DNA of 64,000 nucleotides from a virus: IMG/VR virus record IMGVR_UViG_3300045141_000130, positions 1-64,000 of that record, one strand, 5' to 3'. Positions 2,944 through 62,475 of this stretch are shown here, piece by piece. How positions within the stretch are numbered: the stretch's first letter is position 1; each line of letters begins with the position of its first letter. The translations under genes and the position numbers were made by a program. The notes below the pieces were generated by a model. That model searched no databases. It had not been told where the DNA came from and saw only the letters and a list, made by a program, of their open reading frames with translations.

Positions 2944-3296
2944 CAGCCCTCCAGCGGCTCGGGAAGCTCGACGAGGATGGGCTCCTTACGGGCACGCCGC
3001 ACACGGGGTGCCGGGGCGGGCTCGGCCTCGGAGGGCTCCTGCATCACCGTCGCCTCGGAGGCGGGCGGGTCGTAGGCCGCGACACCCAGCTGGGCGTAGA
3101 TCGCGTCGGCCTGCTCCGGGCAGTACTTCTGGACGGCGGCCGACAGGTCCTTGAGGGTGGTGTCGACCTCGACCATCTCCCCGGCCCGGACCAGGGACTC
3201 CACCAGTCGCCAGGTGTGCGCCTCGGGTACCGGCTCCCCCGGCTCCCGGTACGTCGTACCGATCAGCAACCGGCGGCGAGCCTCGTAGCTTCTCAC
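2943..3296 (-). CDS. Head protein of unknown function after the major capsid gene
   Basis: A 117-residue protein with a GTG start 4-5 nt behind AAAGGAGGT, an unusually tight spacing. The first 80 residues look folded; the last 40 are rich in Glu, Pro, Ala and Arg (APAPRVRRARKEPIL). Small genes between major capsid and the first connector often encode adaptor or disordered head components. No family recognised. Confidence 0.6.
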   Translation of the reverse strand: MRSYEARRRLLIGTTYREPGEPVPEAHTWRLVESLVRAGEMVEVDTTLKDLSAAVQKYCPEQADAIYAQLGVAAYDPPASEATVMQEPSEAEPAPAPRVRRARKEPILVELPEPLEG

Positions 3297-39394: not shown

Positions 39395-39750
39395 GCCTTC
39401 ACGCTCCCACCGGTGTCCACCCGCACGGGCCAATCCCACTGGCCGAGCCCTCCGCCCTGGGCGACGGAGTATTCGCGGTAGTCGCGGCCCAGGCCGTGCA
39501 CGAGGAGGTCGACGGTGGTGTCGTCGGGCAGCACGTCTTCGACGCCGGGCGGGCGGGGCGTGGTGGCGTGCCGGACGTCGGGGTCGGTGGCGGATTGCAC
39601 GGTGCGCGGCTCCGGCCCCCAGCGTTGCGACACGGCGGGCACGCAGGTGTCCTTGGTGCGGATCACCACGGCGGGCGAGAGGACGTCATTGCCGGGCCCG
39701 TTGTCGATCTTGGAGCGGTACAGCACGATGCGGCCGAGGGTGGGGTTCAC
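39391..39750 (-). CDS. Hypothetical protein of a common actinophage type
   Basis: A 119-residue protein from a GTG start that overlaps the preceding TGA by four bases. It starts GTG-NPTLGRIVLYRSK and contains a V-H-G-x-G loop (LLVHGLGRDYREY). Proteins beginning with RIVLYRS are common small genes in actinophages. Function unknown. Confidence 0.6.
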   Translation of the reverse strand: MNPTLGRIVLYRSKIDNGPGNDVLSPAVVIRTKDTCVPAVSQRWGPEPRTVQSATDPDVRHATTPRPPGVEDVLPDDTTVDLLVHGLGRDYREYSVAQGGGLGQWDWPVRVDTGGSVKA

Positions 39751-51212: not shown

Positions 51213-51330
51213 GGCGTGGCACGGCACGGCTGGGCTTGGCCTGGCGTGGCGTGGCCGGGCAAGCCATGGCTTGGCAAGGCATGGTTTGGCTGGGTCCGGC
51301 CTGGCAAGGCACGGCGCGGCAAGGTAAGGG
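51213..51330 (+). repeat. GGYNN pentanucleotide array 1
   Basis: About 23 units in a 5-base phase (for example TTGGCAAGGCATGG), ending GGTAAGGG. Not coding: five is not a multiple of three and the unit is not conserved as peptide. It follows the coiled-coil gene stop and runs into a hairpin with a GCAA loop. Confidence 0.75.
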
Positions 51331-51347
51331 TCCCTCGCAAGGGGGAC
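51330..51347 (+). ncRNA. Array-end hairpin with GNRA loop
   Basis: GTCCCTC and GGGGGAC pair around GCAA. The first G is the last base of the array, as in the other array-end hairpins, and an ACAAG tail follows. Confidence 0.5.
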
Positions 51348-55834: not shown

Positions 55835-55876
55835 CTGGCCCACCCTTCGGGGTGGGCCAGGGGTCTGCGATTTTTT
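55835..55876 (+). terminator. Intrinsic terminator
   Basis: CTGGCCCACCC/GGGTGGGCCAG (11 bp) around TTCG, extended at the base by GCAG/CTGC-type pairing, then ATTTTTT. Ends the four-gene run before the DUF932 gene. Confidence 0.72.
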
Positions 55877-55903
55877 GCGTTTCCGGGGAAAAGATGATCT
55901 TGA

Positions 55904-55927
55904 ACCCTCCGATTGGTGTCGGAGGGT
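55904..55927 (+). promoter_or_regulatory. Leader hairpin before the DUF932-type gene
   Basis: ACCCTCCGA/TCGGAGGGT, 9 bp perfect, loop TTGGTG. 50 bases before the GTG start, which has its own open CGAAAGGAGG site. Its role may parallel the two-hairpin elements. Confidence 0.5.
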
Positions 55928-55976
55928 CGATTCATGCTGTCCGGAACCACCGGCAGCACCCGAAAGGAGGGCCGCT

Positions 55977-57332
55977 GTGACAACAGCGAGTCCCGAGCGC
56001 ATCGGAAATGCGCACACCGCAGTAGCGCGAGGTGCCGAGTTCGGCGACATCCTCGCGTTGCTCAACAAGCAGCAGGCCAGGAAGGTCGACATCGTCATTC
56101 CTGGCAGCAAACTGCTCGTCCGGGACGGCATGCTCGTCGTCGCCGACGACGTCGTCGACATGAGCGACGAAGGGGTGACCCGGGTCGGCGGCGAGTATTG
56201 GCCCACCACCTGGTTCGACGCCCACGTCGCCGAACGGTTGGACATTCCTGTTGCCTATCTGCGCCGCCTGCGCAACGGCAGGGAGATCGTCGGCACCAGG
56301 GGTCGCAGCCGCACCCTCGGCCCGCGACTGGACCTGTACGACAGCAACGTCAACGGGTTGTTCCGCGGCAACGACGACGTCCCGCCGGACCTGCGGAACT
56401 TCTACGCCCGGCTGCTCGTCCCCGACGACCAGGACACCAACGGCATCGCCTACGCGCTGATGTCCTCCAAGTACTGGAGGCTGGACAACTACGACGCGAT
56501 CATGGCCACCCTGTCCGGCATCCGCAAGGCCGGGATCGACCCGCTGTCGTTGCACATCTACGGCGACCTGTCGGAGACGAAGCTGTACCTGCACGTCCAC
56601 GCGCCGCAGGTGCTCACCGCCGCACCCGAACTGCTGCGCAACTACCGCAGCCCGTTCGACATCCAGGGCGAGGCAAGCAAACGCCAGGTTCCGGCCTACA
56701 CGCTGGAGCAGAGGGTGGCCATGGGCCGCCAGTGGCGGGAGACCCACCGGCTGGACGAACACATCCAGCCCGGCTCCGAACCGCTCGTCCACTCCGGTTT
56801 CCTGATCACCAACTCGGAGATCGGGCAGGGCCGCTGGTCCATCCAGAAGGAGATCGTCTTCCTGGCGTGCACCAACGGGATGACCTTGACGGCGGGCCGT
56901 TTCGAGCGGCGGCACGTCGGCAGCGACCAGGAGGAGGGCCAGGTCGAATGGTCGGCGGAAACCCGTGACGCCGAGTTGCAGTGGATCGTCTCCTCGACCG
57001 CCGACATCGTGGCCGATGCGCTCAACCCGGAATCCCTGGAGAACACCGTCACCGCCCTGGAGCAGAAGGCGGGGCGCACCGTGGACGACCCGCGACGCAC
57101 CATCGCGGTCGTCGCCCAGAAGCACCTGTTCAACAAGGACGAGGAGGAGGCGATCCTCCGCCACTTCGAGTTGGGTCAGGCCTTCACCAGTGCCGGTGTG
57201 GCGCAGGCCATCTCGTCCGTCGCCCAGATGTACGAGGACCCGGACCGGGCGCACAAGCTGACCGACGCCGCCATCCCCGCGATGGAACTCGTCCACTCCC
57301 TGAGAAGTACCGGGAGTCGGGCATCCCTCTGA
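55977..57332 (+). CDS. DUF932-type phage/plasmid protein
   Basis: A 451-residue protein with GTG start behind AAAGGAGG. It resembles the DUF932 family of phage and plasmid proteins: RNFYARLLVPDDQDTNGIAY, ALMSSKYWRLDNYDAI in the N-half, then HSGFLITNSEIGQGRWSIQK and FLACTNGMTLTAGRFERRH in the middle. Biochemistry of the family is not well established. The largest rightward gene here, and the array that follows starts right after its stop. Confidence 0.75.
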   Translation: MTTASPERIGNAHTAVARGAEFGDILALLNKQQARKVDIVIPGSKLLVRDGMLVVADDVVDMSDEGVTRVGGEYWPTTWFDAHVAERLDIPVAYLRRLRNGREIVGTRGRSRTLGPRLDLYDSNVNGLFRGNDDVPPDLRNFYARLLVPDDQDTNGIAYALMSSKYWRLDNYDAIMATLSGIRKAGIDPLSLHIYGDLSETKLYLHVHAPQVLTAAPELLRNYRSPFDIQGEASKRQVPAYTLEQRVAMGRQWRETHRLDEHIQPGSEPLVHSGFLITNSEIGQGRWSIQKEIVFLACTNGMTLTAGRFERRHVGSDQEEGQVEWSAETRDAELQWIVSSTADIVADALNPESLENTVTALEQKAGRTVDDPRRTIAVVAQKHLFNKDEEEAILRHFELGQAFTSAGVAQAISSVAQMYEDPDRAHKLTDAAIPAMELVHSLRSTGSRASL

Positions 57333-57680
57333 GACCTGGCAAGGCCGGGAGAGGCCGGGCGAGGCATGGCTAGCTTTGGCACGCAAGGGCGAGGCTTGGC
57401 TTGGCTAGGCGTGGCAAGGCGTGGCTAGGCGGGGAATGGCAAGGCGAGGTATGGAATGCCGAGGCGGTGCATGGCCGGGCTAGGCCAGGTTCGGCGCGGT
57501 ATGGCTCGGCAAGGCATGGCGAGGCTCGGTTGGGTCGGCCATGGCGAGGCAAGGCTAGGCGAGGCGCGGTGTGGCAAGGCGGGGTTCGGCAAGGTCAGGT
57601 TCGGCGTGCTCCGGTTTGGTATGGCCAGGTCGGGCTAGGCACGGTCGGGTCCGGTTCGGCGGGCCTGGGCATGGTATGGG
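57333..57680 (+). repeat. GGYNN pentanucleotide array 2
   Basis: About 69 consecutive pentamers with GG at a fixed phase, the following base nearly always C or T, and two free bases. A few units have GC or TG in place of GG, but the phase is not lost. It ends CATGGTATGGG. No repeated longer unit could be seen, which argues against simple slippage expansion. Confidence 0.8.
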
Positions 57681-57713
57681 CTCCCCGTAAGTCCCTCATT
57701 TGGGCCGGGGAGC
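57680..57713 (+). ncRNA. GTAAGT RNA motif, copy 1
   Basis: Outer stem GCTCCCC/GGGGAGC (7 bp) and inner stem CCC/GGG, with GTAAGT on the 5' side and CC on the 3' side of the internal loop. Starts on the last G of array 2; tail AAACAAC. Confidence 0.65.
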
Positions 57714-57720
57714 AAACAAC

Positions 57721-57744
57721 AAATCCCTTGAGAGGAAAGGATTT
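57721..57744 (+). promoter_or_regulatory. Ribosome-binding hairpin
   Basis: AAATCC/GGATTT around a purine-rich loop (GAGAGGAAA). AGAGGAAAGGA carries the ribosome binding site. ATG four bases after the stem. Confidence 0.5.
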
Positions 57745-57748
57745 TCGC

Positions 57749-58159
57749 ATGACAGGAGGACCATCAGACGGGGCGTACGAAGTCCTGAACACGATGCTTC
57801 ACGACATGCTTCACAGCCCGGGGGCGCAGGCCACGTTCAACATGGACACGCCGATGGCGACACTCATCGACACGTTCGATCTGGCCTTGCCGCCGGACTC
57901 CGACGAGAACTTCACCTGCGATCTGTGCGACCAGGTACACCGGGAGGGCCTGGACCGCATCGTCACCGCATTCGAGCCTGGCGAGCCACCCACCGACGGC
58001 AGCCCCGGGTACGTCAAGATGATCGCCGCCGCGGGCAAGAGCCCCACAGATCTGGCCATGGAGAAACTCGACCGACCGAGGGTGATCCTGGTCCTGTACT
58101 CGTGCCGCAACTGCTCGCTGGAGATCCAGCAGGGGATGGACCGCCAGGAAACCTTCTGA
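57749..58159 (+). CDS. Protein with two CxxC motifs
   Basis: A 136-residue acidic protein starting MTGGPSDGAYEVLNTMLHDM. CDLCDQVH (about 58-65) and CRNC (about 120-123) could make a zinc site. The frame is open upstream through the array, but the start is set by the AGGAAAGGA site. It lies between arrays 2 and 3. Function unknown. Confidence 0.65.
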   Translation: MTGGPSDGAYEVLNTMLHDMLHSPGAQATFNMDTPMATLIDTFDLALPPDSDENFTCDLCDQVHREGLDRIVTAFEPGEPPTDGSPGYVKMIAAAGKSPTDLAMEKLDRPRVILVLYSCRNCSLEIQQGMDRQETF

Positions 58160-58164
58160 GACGT

Positions 58165-58553
58165 GCTGTGGCATGGCGTGACTCGGTGGGGCGAGGCGGG
58201 GCATGCTTTGGCGCGGCGAGGCGGGGCTAGGCGTGGCCAGGCACGGCGCGGTTCGGCTCGGCGGGGCGAGGCGAGACATGGCAGGCCAAGGCAGGGCACG
58301 GTGCGGTTCGGCTGGCCATGGCTTGGTGTTGGCACGGCTGGGCTCGGCAGGGAATGGCTAGGCCTGGTTTGGTGCGGCCGGGAGTGGCTCGGCTAGGCAA
58401 GGTCGGGTTAGGCGTGGCTCGGCGTGGCAAGCCTTGGCGCGGCGCGGTGTGATCAGGTTGGGTGTGCCGCGGTTTGGCTTGGTCGGGTTAGGCGCGGCGT
58501 GGCATGACTTGGCTCGGTGTGGCTCGGCATGGAAGGCCAGGGCACGGTTTGGG
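58165..58553 (+). repeat. GGYNN pentanucleotide array 3
   Basis: About 77 pentamers, with one visible insertion that shifts the phase by one base (near GGTGTTGG). Ends CACGGTTTGGG. Same base rules as array 2 but no shared order of units. Confidence 0.8.
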
Positions 58554-58583
58554 TTCTCCGTAAGTCCCTTCGGGCCGGAGAAC
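58553..58583 (+). ncRNA. GTAAGT RNA motif, copy 2
   Basis: Outer stem GTTCTCC/GGAGAAC, GTAAGT, inner CCC-TTC-GGG, CC. Stem sequences differ from copies 1 and 3 at several pairs while pairing is kept. Tail AAAGGGG. Confidence 0.65.
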
Positions 58584-58637
58584 AAAGGGGGATTGGGGGG
58601 GGCGTATACAACCTCGAAACTCTTTGGGAGAACAAGA

Positions 58638-59696
58638 ATGACGAGTACGGAAACACAGATACGTGCAGTGTCTGACGCACCGTTCGCAATGACGCCGCAT
58701 TTGTTGCGGATGCTGCGCGAGCGGCCTGTCGGGGTCCAGCGGATCCTGCGCAGGACCGACACCGGGGAGTTGAGGGCGTTCCTCGACCCCACCGCCGCAG
58801 ACCAGGGCTTCTGGACCGCCCTCCCCGTCTGGCGTTCGGCGGAATGGCGCTACGACGACAGCCGCTGGCTGGCCAGCACCGGCAGCCTGTCGTCGCCGGA
58901 GAACCTGGTGGACAACCTCGGCTGGTTCGACGTCCCGATCGTCTGGGCCATCACCGAGACCCCGTACTTCGCGGAGTTGCTCGCGGCCCGGTCGGACGAC
59001 ACGGTGCTGGTGATGGGTGACCCGCGGGACGGCGAACTGCGGTGCTACAAGGAGCGGAACTGGGACGAGTACCCCGCCCAGAGCGGCTGGCAGGCGTGGC
59101 CGACCGTCCGCGATCCCCTCAACCGGTCCTACGGCCCGGATCTCAACTGGCTGACCCACAACTTCGGCGCCGTCTCCCTGCAGCAGGTCAAGGACGCCGG
59201 TTTCATCAAGGTGTGGGAGAAGGCCGAGGAGAACCCCATCCTCGTCGAGGTCAACCCGGAGGTGAACCGGCTGCAACTGCGCATCACCGACCTGGAGTCC
59301 ACCCTGGCCACTCTGCGCACCCAGAACCAGACGCAGCAGCGGCGCCTGGAGCAGATGTCCAACGACCACGAGCGGTTCAAGGAGTTGGTGTCCTCCACCG
59401 CCACCAAGTACGCCCGGCGGCACGACTGGTGCTCCGTCGTCGACGAGGCGCTGGAGGAGATGGGACTGGAGAGGGAGCCGGTCAGCTTCAGCGGGGTCAT
59501 CAGCGTCCGCATCAACTTCACCGCCAACCGCACCGACGGTGAACGTGGCACCCCGAACGCCCGTGACGTCAACCGCTGGCTGTACGGCGAGGATGACGTG
59601 CGTGAAGCCATCGGCGAGAACCTCAGCCTCGACGAGGATTACGCCGGTGACTTCGAGATCGACAGCTACAGCTTCGAGGTCATCTCCACCTCGTAG
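58638..59696 (+). CDS. Unknown protein with coiled coil and a C-terminal domain shared with the next gene
   Basis: A 352-residue protein. N-terminal part about 1-210 (FDVPIVWAITETPYFAELLA), coiled coil about 210-260 (LQLRITDLESTLATLRTQNQ), C-terminal beta-alpha domain about 280-352 (FSGVISVRINFTAN ... YAGDFEIDSYSFEV). The last domain resembles the C-terminal half of the next gene. GGGAG lies ahead of the ATG. Function unknown. Confidence 0.65.
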   Translation: MTSTETQIRAVSDAPFAMTPHLLRMLRERPVGVQRILRRTDTGELRAFLDPTAADQGFWTALPVWRSAEWRYDDSRWLASTGSLSSPENLVDNLGWFDVPIVWAITETPYFAELLAARSDDTVLVMGDPRDGELRCYKERNWDEYPAQSGWQAWPTVRDPLNRSYGPDLNWLTHNFGAVSLQQVKDAGFIKVWEKAEENPILVEVNPEVNRLQLRITDLESTLATLRTQNQTQQRRLEQMSNDHERFKELVSSTATKYARRHDWCSVVDEALEEMGLEREPVSFSGVISVRINFTANRTDGERGTPNARDVNRWLYGEDDVREAIGENLSLDEDYAGDFEIDSYSFEVISTS

Positions 59697-59712
59697 TGCG
59701 CTACGCAGTAGC

Positions 59713-59769
59713 AGCCCCCCTGCCACCCGGCAGGGGGGCTTCCTTGTCCGCAAAAACACCTGAAAGGTG
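59713..59769 (+). promoter_or_regulatory. Two-hairpin translation-initiation element
   Basis: AGCCCCCCTGCC/GGCAGGGGGGCT hairpin (59713-59740; loop ACCC), then CACC/GGTG around TGAAA (59757-59769). GTG start follows after eight bases. Confidence 0.55.
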
Positions 59770-59777
59770 GTTCTGCT

Positions 59778-60398
59778 GTGCCAGACGTCGACGACGAAGA
59801 CCCGTCACGACACACGTACGAGAGCCGGGAGATGGCCGAACGGGAACTGGCGGGCTGGTTCCCGCCGTCGGTCCCCGAGGAGGCCAAACCGGAACTCATG
59901 CGCATCGCCATCGTCGAACACCCCGGGCAGGAACCCCTGCGCACCCTGTGGAGCATCCACCCGGAGTTCGTCTACCTGACGAACCCCGAACTGTGGATGC
60001 TCGTCACCTGGATCACCGGTGACGAGCGTTCCCGCGGCAGCCTCCGCGGGATACCGCTGCTACTGGTCCAGCTGGCAGCGCTGCGCGATCACCATGTCGC
60101 GCTCATCGGGCAACTCAACGAACTGACATCCAACCAGGAGGCAAACACCATGACCGAACCCATCAACGTCGACCCCAGCACCGTGATCCATCAGGGAACG
60201 ATCAGCATCGCCATCGACTTCCGGGCAACCTTGGCGCCCACCGAGTTCCTGGAGGGCGACGACATCGAGGAGGCGCTGAACAAGTTCGCCGACCTGGAGG
60301 CGATCAAGAACGCCATCAAGGCCGCTCCCCGGCTCGACGGCATCTCCATCGAGAGCATCTCGTTCGGTGCTCAGGTGGCCAGCTTTTTGACCAGCTGA
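59778..60398 (+). CDS. Unknown protein with a possible internal start
   Basis: A 206-residue protein from GTG. The first 115 residues are acidic and helical; the last 82 (from MTEPINVDPSTV) form a domain like the C-terminus of the previous protein (HQGTISIAIDFRAT, LDGISIESISFGAQV). An in-frame ATG at 60150 has a good CAGGAGG site eight bases ahead, so the C-terminal domain may also be made alone. Confidence 0.65.
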   Translation: MPDVDDEDPSRHTYESREMAERELAGWFPPSVPEEAKPELMRIAIVEHPGQEPLRTLWSIHPEFVYLTNPELWMLVTWITGDERSRGSLRGIPLLLVQLAALRDHHVALIGQLNELTSNQEANTMTEPINVDPSTVIHQGTISIAIDFRATLAPTEFLEGDDIEEALNKFADLEAIKNAIKAAPRLDGISIESISFGAQVASFLTS

Positions 60399-60404
60399 CC
60401 TTCT

Positions 60405-60548
60405 GACGTGGCCAGGGCTTGGCAAGCCGTGGCGGGGTCGGGTCGGCCGTGGCGTGGCTAGACAGGGCCGGGTTTGGTGTGGCTCGGAATGGTGCGGCGA
60501 GCCAGGGTTCGGCTCGGCATGGCATGGCCGGGTTCGGTGAGGTATGGG
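60405..60548 (+). repeat. GGYNN pentanucleotide array 4
   Basis: About 28 units starting soon after the stop codon and ending GAGGTATGGGG, where a strong hairpin starts. Same rules as the other arrays. Confidence 0.75.
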
Positions 60549-60575
60549 GCCCCCCAGCCTTCGGGCTGGGGGGCC
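60548..60575 (+). terminator. Array-end hairpin, 12 bp with UUCG loop
   Basis: GGCCCCCCAGCC/GGCTGGGGGGCC around TTCG, perfect. Followed by ATCCTCGTCGC with no U-tract. Lies at an array end but no gene follows; another array does. Confidence 0.6.
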
Positions 60576-60589
60576 ATCCTCGTCGCAGG

Positions 60590-60782
60590 GGGGTTGCGGC
60601 GAGGCTGGCTGAGGCGCGGCGCGGCGGGGCAGGGTCCGGCTTGGCCAGGCATGGCTGGGCGAGGTTGGGTGTGGGGTGGTTAGCCGAGGTCCGGCGCGGC
60701 TGGCTGGGGTTCGGCGGGGTGGGGCTTGGTCTGGCGTGCCCAGGCACGGTGAGGTATGGGGCCCGCCACGGGGGGTGTGGCG
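60590..60782 (+). repeat. GGYNN pentanucleotide array 5 and end hairpin
   Basis: About 34 units, ending GAGGTATGGGG and then a CGCCAC/GTGGCG hairpin (60764-60782). The hairpin runs straight into the next array. No gene is visible here on either strand; open frames exist only because the repeat lacks stops. Confidence 0.7.
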
Positions 60783-61100
60783 AGCCATGGATAGGACTGG
60801 CAAGGCTGGACCTGGCGGGGCAAGGTCGGACAGGGCAAGGCGTGGCCTGGTGCGGCTGGGTTAGGCACGGCCTGGTGCGGCTAGCTTCGGCGGGGCGTTG
60901 GCTCGGCATGGCCTGCCGTGGAAAGGTTGGCCGAGGCAAGGCGTGGCAAGGCGCGGCGAGGTGAGGCCTGGCAGGGCAGGGCGCGGCGAGGCGGGGCAGG
61001 CCACGGCGGGGCGAGGTGTGGTCAGGTTCAGGTGGGGTCTGGGTCTGGCGTGGCAGCGGCTGGGCCAGGCCCGGTTTGGCCAGGCGCGGCGTGGTATGGG
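60783..61100 (+). repeat. GGYNN pentanucleotide array 6
   Basis: About 63 units, with a few phase slips, ending CGTGGTATGGG on which RNA motif copy 3 starts. Part of a 915-base gene-free stretch. Confidence 0.75.
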
Positions 61101-61146
61101 CCGCCCGTAAGTCCTTAGCCGCCGGATGCGGCTAAGGCCGGGCGGC
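61100..61146 (+). ncRNA. GTAAGT RNA motif, copy 3
   Basis: Outer stem GCCGCCC/GGGCGGC, GTAAGT, inner stem CCTTAGCCGC/GCGGCTAAGG (10 bp) with CGGAT loop, CC. The inner stem is much longer than in copies 1 and 2 but the internal loop is identical. Tail GAAACAAG. Confidence 0.7.
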
Positions 61147-61170
61147 GAAACAAGTCTTCCTTCCAATCTC

Positions 61171-61268
61171 AGGCTAGGCATGCCGAGCACAGGCATGGCC
61201 TGGATAGGTGCGGCGCGCTGCGGTTGGCCGTGGCTCGGCAGGGAAAGGCTTGGCAAGGCGAGGTATGG
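61171..61268 (+). repeat. GGYNN pentanucleotide array 7
   Basis: About 19 units with some imperfect ones at the start, ending GAGGTATGGG. Leads into the array-end hairpin before the 227-residue gene. Confidence 0.7.
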
Positions 61269-61294
61269 GTCCCCAAGGAGAAGCCTTGCGGGAC
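61269..61294 (+). ncRNA. Array-end hairpin
   Basis: GTCCCCAAGG pairs with CCTTG-C-GGGAC (10 bp with one bulge). Starts on the last G of the array and has the A-rich tail AAGAACAAAGGAG, which includes the ribosome binding site. Confidence 0.5.
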
Positions 61295-61313
61295 AAGAAC
61301 AAAGGAGCACGCC

Positions 61314-61997
61314 GTGGTTACACGGAGCCGCAGTACCGCAGTGAAGCCGGACCCGGAGCCGAACGCTCTGGACGGTGATGTGAGCGACTCGGGCAACGCC
61401 ACGTACGAGGCCAACCGGCCCTTCCGGGCGGCCGTCGAGATCACCGGCGACTCGGTGATCCTGTTCCACCGTTGGCAGTCCGACGCGGTCGACGCGAAGG
61501 CCGCTGCCGCCAAGGGGTCCCGAGCGAAGAAGACCGATGATGTTGATTCTTACGTTTGGGAGAACGAGAACGGGGTGCTGTGCCTGCCCGGCGAGTACCT
61601 GCGTTGCTCGCTCACCAACCCGCAGAACGGTGCCGCGAAGTACCTTCAGGACCCGCGGTCCCCCCGCAAGTCGGCCTTGGATTTGTTCAAGGCTGGTGTT
61701 GTCAGCCTCACCGACCTGGCCCCGATCACCAAGGCGGACGGCACACCGGCCGAGGGCTGGGACCACCTGGACCGCCGCCGCGTGGTGGTGCAGAGGTCGG
61801 GCGTCACCCGCTCCCGGCCCGCATTCGCCACCGGCTGGAAGGCGGAGATCATTTTGATGTCTCTGCTGCCTCAATACATCAGCCCGTCATTGCTGCGGAC
61901 GACGCTGTCCGACGCTGGGAAACTCGTTGGGGTGGGCGACTTCCGGCCCACCTTCGGCCGGTTCAGCGTCACGAAGTTTGAGGTCCTCCAGGACTAG
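61314..61997 (+). CDS. Unknown conserved-looking phage protein
   Basis: A 227-residue protein with GTG start behind AAAGGAG. Folded throughout: FRAAVEITGDSVILFHRWQS, LCLPGEYLRCSLTNPQNG, DLFKAGVVSLTDLAPI, VGDFRPTFGRFSVTKFEVL. I recall similar unnamed proteins in actinophages but know no function. It lies between arrays 7 and 8. Confidence 0.65.
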   Translation: MVTRSRSTAVKPDPEPNALDGDVSDSGNATYEANRPFRAAVEITGDSVILFHRWQSDAVDAKAAAAKGSRAKKTDDVDSYVWENENGVLCLPGEYLRCSLTNPQNGAAKYLQDPRSPRKSALDLFKAGVVSLTDLAPITKADGTPAEGWDHLDRRRVVVQRSGVTRSRPAFATGWKAEIILMSLLPQYISPSLLRTTLSDAGKLVGVGDFRPTFGRFSVTKFEVLQD

Positions 61998-62238
61998 GCG
62001 AGGCTGGGCTGGGCATGGCGCGGCTGGGCGCGGCAAGGCCTGGCTAGGAATGGCAAGCCGGGGCGCGGCTAGGCGAGGCTGGGCGGGGTCAGGTGGGGCT
62101 AGGTTCGGCGTGGCATGGCGAGACATGGCTCGGCTGGGCAAGGCGTGCCTTGGCAAGGCGCGGCGCGGCTGGGAAAGGCAAGGTCGGGTGGGGCCTGGCG
62201 AGGTCCGGCCGGGTATGCCGAGGCTCGGTGAGGTATGG
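61998..62238 (+). repeat. GGYNN pentanucleotide array 8
   Basis: About 48 units from the stop codon to GAGGTATGGG. Ends with a hairpin that has a CTCG loop, and then promoter P3. Last array in the window. Confidence 0.78.
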
Positions 62239-62258
62239 GTTTCACCCTCGGGTGAGAC
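62239..62258 (+). ncRNA. Array-end hairpin
   Basis: GTTTCACC/GGTGAGAC (8 bp, one wobble) around CTCG, starting on the last G of array 8; tail GAGAAG. Confidence 0.5.
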
Positions 62259-62275: not shown

Positions 62276-62304
62276 TTGCGTTCTCGGTTTTGACCCCATA
62301 CAAT
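62276..62304 (+). promoter_or_regulatory. Rightward promoter P3
   Basis: TTGCGT and TACAAT at 17 bases. The best spaced of the three. It would start a transcript near 62311 with no credible open frame before the terminator at 62433. Confidence 0.68.
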
Positions 62305-62306
62305 GG

Positions 62307-62468
62307 GGACATGCCTTCCGAACAACTGGGCGCCGCTGAGGCGAACACCAGCGGGAGGCGAAGCACTGGATGTCCGTTGCGGGGTGCAAGTCCCCGGTTC
62401 CTGCAAAGAGCCACGGAGTCCGGTTCGACCTAGAGGCCCCGCCTGATTCGTCAGGCGGGGCCTCTTTC
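62307..62468 (+). ncRNA. Structured non-coding RNA of about 155 nt
   Basis: Between P3 and a terminator there is no good coding frame. GGACAT (62307-62312) pairs with ATGTCC (62370-62375), enclosing GCCTT/GAGGC and CCGCTG/CAGCGG helices. Then CGTTGCGGGGTGC, with GGGG/CCCC around TGCAAGT, and a GGTTCGACC T-loop-like sequence before the terminator. Not recognised as tRNA, tmRNA or any known small RNA. The promoter and terminator flank it exactly. Confidence 0.6.
62433..62467 (+). terminator. Intrinsic terminator of the ncRNA
   Basis: GAGGCCCCGCCTGA/TCAGGCGGGGCCTC, 14 bp perfect, TTCG loop, then TTTCGTT. The most regular terminator of the window. Confidence 0.8.
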
Positions 62469-62475
62469 GTTGTGT

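Follow-up and report, generated by a model that had tools for sequence, protein, structure and literature searches.

What kind of element fills the gaps between genes with GGYNN pentanucleotides, so that GG recurs every five bases and is followed by a pyrimidine and two variable bases? This is the question raised by the window, a stretch of 64,000 nucleotides from a 73,357-base IMG/VR virus record. A five-base GG phase had been claimed in the earlier note, and the lag-5 autocorrelation of GG positions, set as the test beforehand, bore it out: across 57333-62238 it was 0.319 on the + strand and −0.01 on the − strand, compared with −0.0005 ± 0.0165 (maximum 0.045) in 200 dinucleotide shuffles (z = 19.4), and it reached 0.764 (z 8.2) in the block 51213-51330. 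The longest chain comprised 87 GG units, versus at most 12 in the shuffles. On the + strand, chained blocks were located at 51213-51332, 57338-57682, 58170-58555, 60416-60550, 60598-61102, 61192-61271 and 61997-62241, and the block 60598-61102 was found to consist of two arrays divided by a tail at about 60753-60786. This gives eight tail-delimited arrays with a total span of 1816 bp, in agreement with the about 1.8 kb in seven plus one blocks counted before. The previous statement that the arrays are confined to the sense strand between genes also held, as no chain of at least 9 units was found on the − strand and the only overlap with a listed gene was 1 base at the vipr stop; that they do not code for protein was likewise upheld. 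A further array, searched for with an exact 8-unit pattern, was not found in the last 9 kb of the record.

Within the blocks, C or T occupied position 3 in 79-96% of units, 13-33 distinct units were present per block, and GG was lost in roughly 5-20% of the units of each array. The phase had been described as held with few slips, which was the case for the longest single-phase run (69 units, 62 with GG) and for most of the blocks, where slips were rare, but not for 60598-61102, which contained five.

VIPR (Viral Interference Programmable Repeat) was described for Escherichia phage SUSP1 in a preprint of April/June 2026 (PMC13142463), the main text of which presents it as a Vipr RAMP protein plus vrRNAs, composed of 9-16 YNNGG repeats and a structured 3′ tail. 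The NN pairs are reported there to read double-stranded DNA with one base skipped and to act on competing phages, and scrambling NN while keeping GGY abolished the activity in SUSP1. The claim that no such phage element had been described is thus outdated. We consider it very probable that the window arrays are the genes for the vrRNAs (guide RNAs) of a VIPR system carried by the phage, with 61314-61997 encoding its Vipr protein. Both this partner gene inside the cluster and the hairpin tail ending each array were missed by the earlier note. The features are as follows:

51213..51347, + strand: candidate vrRNA array 1; 24 in-phase units, 23 with GG; hairpin tail 51330-51347
57338..57713, + strand: candidate vrRNA array 2; 69 in-phase units, 62 with GG; hairpin tail 57680-57713
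58170..58583, + strand: candidate vrRNA array 3; 67 GG units, one slip near 58330; hairpin tail 58553-58583
60416..60575, + strand: candidate vrRNA array 4; 23 GG units; hairpin tail 60548-60575
60598..60786, + strand: candidate vrRNA array 5; about 32 units; hairpin tail 60760-60786, the weakest (z −1.5)
60795..61146, + strand: candidate vrRNA array 6; about 55 units, several slips; hairpin tail 61100-61146
61192..61294, + strand: candidate vrRNA array 7; 16 in-phase units, immediately before vipr; hairpin tail 61269-61294
61314..61997, + strand: vipr gene, 227 aa, GTG start after an AAAGGAG site; putative Vipr RAMP-like guide-binding protein
61997..62258, + strand: candidate vrRNA array 8; 49 in-phase units (GG in 45), immediately after vipr; hairpin tail 62239-62258

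All eight arrays ended in GGUAUGGG (once GGUAAGGG and once GGUUUGGG), the last G of which opens a stem-loop, and their tail consensus, with all eight in one register, was GGUWWGGG followed by a hairpin. The stems varied in sequence while keeping their pairing, with 97.5% of cells paired over the first five pairs. Changes on both sides were found in four of the five stem pairs, and the covariation score was reached by none of 500 shuffles, as calculated on a hand-built outer-stem alignment with a dummy loop, in a register chosen by the analyst from the folds. The structured 3′ tail of VIPR is therefore represented in the window by hairpins with compensatory changes. In SUSP1, used as the positive control, the same array finder recovered three arrays (12, 16 and 15 in-phase units), which close with GGTATGGG or GGTGTGGG before a stem.

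The product of 61314-61997 falls in phrog_4652, annotated as ‘unknown function’ in PHROGs. Its family profile had one strong match in the PDB, 36pp ‘SUSP1 Vipr protein’ (E 1.7e-41), and the top Foldseek matches of its AlphaFold2 model (pLDDT 87) were Csm3 and type VII Cas7 chains (E 5e-7, probability 1.0). These matches identify it as a single-domain RAMP homologue with a predicted Csm3/Cas7-like fold. Like Csm3/Cas7 of Class 1 CRISPR-Cas, it is predicted to have an RRM core and a glycine-rich loop, whereas its identity to those RAMPs is only about 10-12%, and neither CRISPR repeats and spacers nor other cas genes were seen. No CRISPR direct-repeat array with spacers and no Rfam family at the gathering threshold was found, the unit being 5 bases, and searches of Rfam, Pfam and PADLOC returned nothing useful for the arrays or vipr. 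TIGR-Tas, as outlined in PMC12045711, likewise combines phage-encoded tandem guide arrays with a partner protein, but was found via a guide-RNA-binding domain of Cas9, while the window protein matches RAMPs.

The tree placed the window Vipr with 13 others, including that of Phage DSL-LC04, in a clade (support 100/98) separate from both the SUSP1 lineage and a lineage that includes cluster F1 mycobacteriophages. The DSL-LC04 protein (OR003939; L245:2971-3588), the closest annotated relative with 54% identity, has GGYNN arrays upstream of its gene and is labelled ‘helix-turn-helix transcriptional regulator’, which is likely a misannotation.

As in SUSP1, the Vipr homologue of the window is flanked by tandem intergenic sense-strand repeats with conserved GGY and variable NN, and the 3′ tails open with GGUAUGGG and a stem. 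Apart from the well-supported separation of the Vipr clades, the differences from SUSP1 concern the RNA genes. The window has eight arrays of 16-69 in-phase units at the DNA level, several of them with 45-69, as opposed to the 9-16 repeats of each SUSP1-type vrRNA given in the main text of PMC13142463, and its tails, as folded here, form hairpins that vary in sequence and are either simple or in two parts. The tail of the SUSP1 clade includes a pseudoknot. The VIPR accessory gene vap, which is typical though not universal, was not recognised in the window, and no window neighbour recurs in other VIPR loci.

The linkage between array and protein was evaluated from both sides. When IMG/VR was scanned for exact runs of ten GGYNN units, at least 119 contigs of 39-73% GC matched, in which the arrays were nearly always one-stranded with constant GGY and diverse NN, and an ORF search with the 61314-61997 protein found a Vipr homologue in 86 of 119 loci fetched by the DNA pattern alone. 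Reciprocally, among 83 loci fetched by the Vipr protein alone, 72 carried a sense array and 4 an antisense one (minimum length 8 units, maximum distance from vipr 2.5 kb), counts that overstate the independent cases owing to some near-identical copies. The presence of arrays in relatives, a point raised by the earlier note, was thus tested and borne out, and the array and the protein travel together across viruses with strong linkage. The 150 arrays of the Vipr-fetched set had a median of 19.5 GG units (longest 101) and near-uniform NN positions. More than 16 GG units were found in 91 of them and more than 30 in 40; long arrays are therefore usual in this Vipr subfamily.

How such long arrays are organized was then considered. 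GG intactness along arrays of at least 30 units was flat, at 83-90% in nearly all bins counted from either end, which argues against decayed distal units. We infer that several guides lie end to end behind one tail. Tentatively, and with less confidence than for the VIPR assignment itself, the stretches of 30-100 units without internal tails in the Vipr lineage of the window could be multi-guide cassettes, in which guides of about 12-16 units follow one another end to end, perhaps with overlaps, use a single 3′ hairpin in common and come and go in blocks, while the sister lineage with the mycobacteriophages would mark block borders by the 4-base GGCA. The ‘staggered arrays with overlapping vrRNAs’ mentioned in PMC13142463 may be this arrangement. 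GGCA accounted for 170 of the 204 four-base units over all loci and punctuates long arrays (L089, L052, L006, L072, L049, L128-L130 and others) at a spacing of mostly 7-13 units (34-64 bases), with 29 occurrences in the 289-unit array of L089; it may mark guide boundaries.

A less likely reading, though the strongest competitor, keeps VIPR but restricts the working guides to the 12-16 units beside each tail, the remainder being an archive or debris of past guides. It would agree with the published vrRNA of 9-16 repeats followed by a 3′ tail, as the main text of PMC13142463 has it, and with the single tail of each long array here. It is countered by the flat GG intactness, by the maintenance of long arrays across the Vipr subfamily, and by the location of the sole decoded guide at the 5′ end of a 60-unit array.

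That guide is found in L160, a locus of the Vipr subfamily of the window, whose 60-unit array at position 3119 directly follows its vipr. Units 3-14 (AG AC CG CC GC TT AA GC GG TG CA GC), read with a 1-nt skip per pair, yield [R/S]-T-R-P-A-[F/L]-[K/N]-A-G-W-[Q/H]-A, a conserved motif of Vipr. Against vipr of L185 and of L094, the decoded guide agreed at 22 of 24 bases; the reading is in frame, and the skipped base falls on the wobble position. Against vipr of L160 itself, the agreement was 18 of 24. None of 40 unit-order permutations reached 22, and hits of at least 21 numbered at most 2 in the permutations versus 8 for the real order. A perfect target of this guide was not found in IMG/VR with a 10-unit exact pattern. 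Because it concerns one guide with homologous, non-independent matches and no perfect target, the decode supports, but does not prove, that the start of the L160 array targets the vipr genes of rivals by the published 1-nt skip rule.

For the window guides, four patterns of 8-10 units gave only chance matches in IMG/VR, which stopped at the pattern edge, and a local target search over 1.26 and 2.37 Mb showed no excess over controls except the L160-to-vipr match. Decoded peptides had no match by hmmscan, and neither did the L160 positive control, so that this search had no power. Of the models compared for NN composition, codon positions 1-2 outdid the other frames and the background but were themselves outdone by a uniform model (321 × ln 16 = 890 vs 922), and the codon-like composition therefore proves nothing. 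The host is probably an actinobacterium, a view based on the GC content of 68%, on the WhiB homologue encoded in the record and on 84 bases that match Gordonia phages, and other phages of this host are probably poorly sampled.

Explanations outside VIPR fared much worse. TRAP binds NAG triplets about every 5 bases, and the array, as RNA or DNA, could analogously be a platform for a ring-forming protein, or form R-loops or two-tier G-quadruplexes regulating neighbouring genes. The period of 5, the restriction to the sense strand, the GG runs with 3-base gaps and the leader or intergenic position would all suit such a role. We regard it as very improbable, given that the linked protein is a RAMP, that NN is diverse and its order in L160 matches rival vipr genes, and that each array bears a vrRNA-like tail. 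TRAP-like binding, R-loops and G-quadruplexes, together with Rho sites and RNA polymerase pausing, were dropped when linkage of the array to a RAMP gene emerged. Slippage producing a neutral microsatellite expansion, suggested only by the tandem 5-base unit, can be dismissed, and the earlier note was right to propose selection on the spacing, because constant GGY with near-uniform NN recurs across relatives of 39-73% GC, and because each array holds tens of distinct units, nearly always in sense, and arrays are found with vipr in unrelated phages.

If the window locus functions as VIPR in this phage, extrapolation from the SUSP1 and P. fulva systems of the preprint would give the following course. 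The arrays would be transcribed, the long ones, as a related locus suggests, each carrying a row of several guides (about 12-16 units apiece); Vipr subunits would grip the GGY positions so that every NN pair is presented; the pairs would read double-stranded DNA with one base skipped between them (NNxNNx); and binding would repress transcription, for the most part that of rival phages or prophages. Because the sequence itself reveals the code, an array could serve as a record of the rival DNA that the phage has fought. VIPR itself was already known, whereas the long arrays, the L160 decode and the VIPR of F1 mycobacteriophages go beyond the main text of the preprint. VIPR, so far the subject of a single preprint focused on phages of E. 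coli and Pseudomonas, is common in uncultivated viruses and is also present in the cluster F1 mycobacteriophages examined, phages that can be grown in a laboratory strain, and the long arrays raise the question of how one hairpin-ended array serves many guides.

The mycobacteriophage examples are the Cheoctovirus phages Philus, Quico and Donkeykong, with Cheoctovirus corresponding to cluster F1. Each encodes a homologue of Vipr (E about 1e-42) under the annotation ‘hypothetical protein’, and the loci lie just after the antirepressor region (L128:6001-6987, L129:5989-6960 and L130:5969-7049, respectively). As in the window, an array lies just upstream of the Vipr gene, here made of GGCNN with 48-68 GG units; unlike in the window, their Vipr falls in another clade, the arrays are interrupted every 7-15 units by the 4-base GGCA, and no hairpin was seen at the array end. 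For Philus and Donkeykong, the annotation places a hypothetical protein across the array.

Several further observations were made around these loci. After array 8, 62300-62470 contains no long + strand gene and has a strong GC-rich inverted repeat, GAGGCCCCGCCTGA..TCAGGCGGGGCCTC, at its end; it is possibly another RNA or a terminator, and it had no Rfam family at the gathering score. Upstream of array 2, the product of the gene at 55875-57332 belongs to phrog_1362, shows a weak DUF932-like match and has no counterpart near the vipr genes of other loci. The 84-base match at 39448-39532, about 92% identical to Gordonia phages Aleemily, ObLaDi and Morgana, lies inside a small gene of unknown function and is the sole near DNA match of 39000-63900 in the phage collection. 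L132 (10599-14910) has two sense arrays and, far from vipr, two opposite-strand arrays (14 and 12 units), whose tails are very strong (z −8 and −6); these two are solitary vrRNA genes. In L002 (3081-3641, reverse-complement coordinates), which belongs to the subfamily of the window, five tandem vrRNAs of 12-17 units each form a clean tail-separated array, with a near-identical 50-base hairpin spacer after each of the first four.
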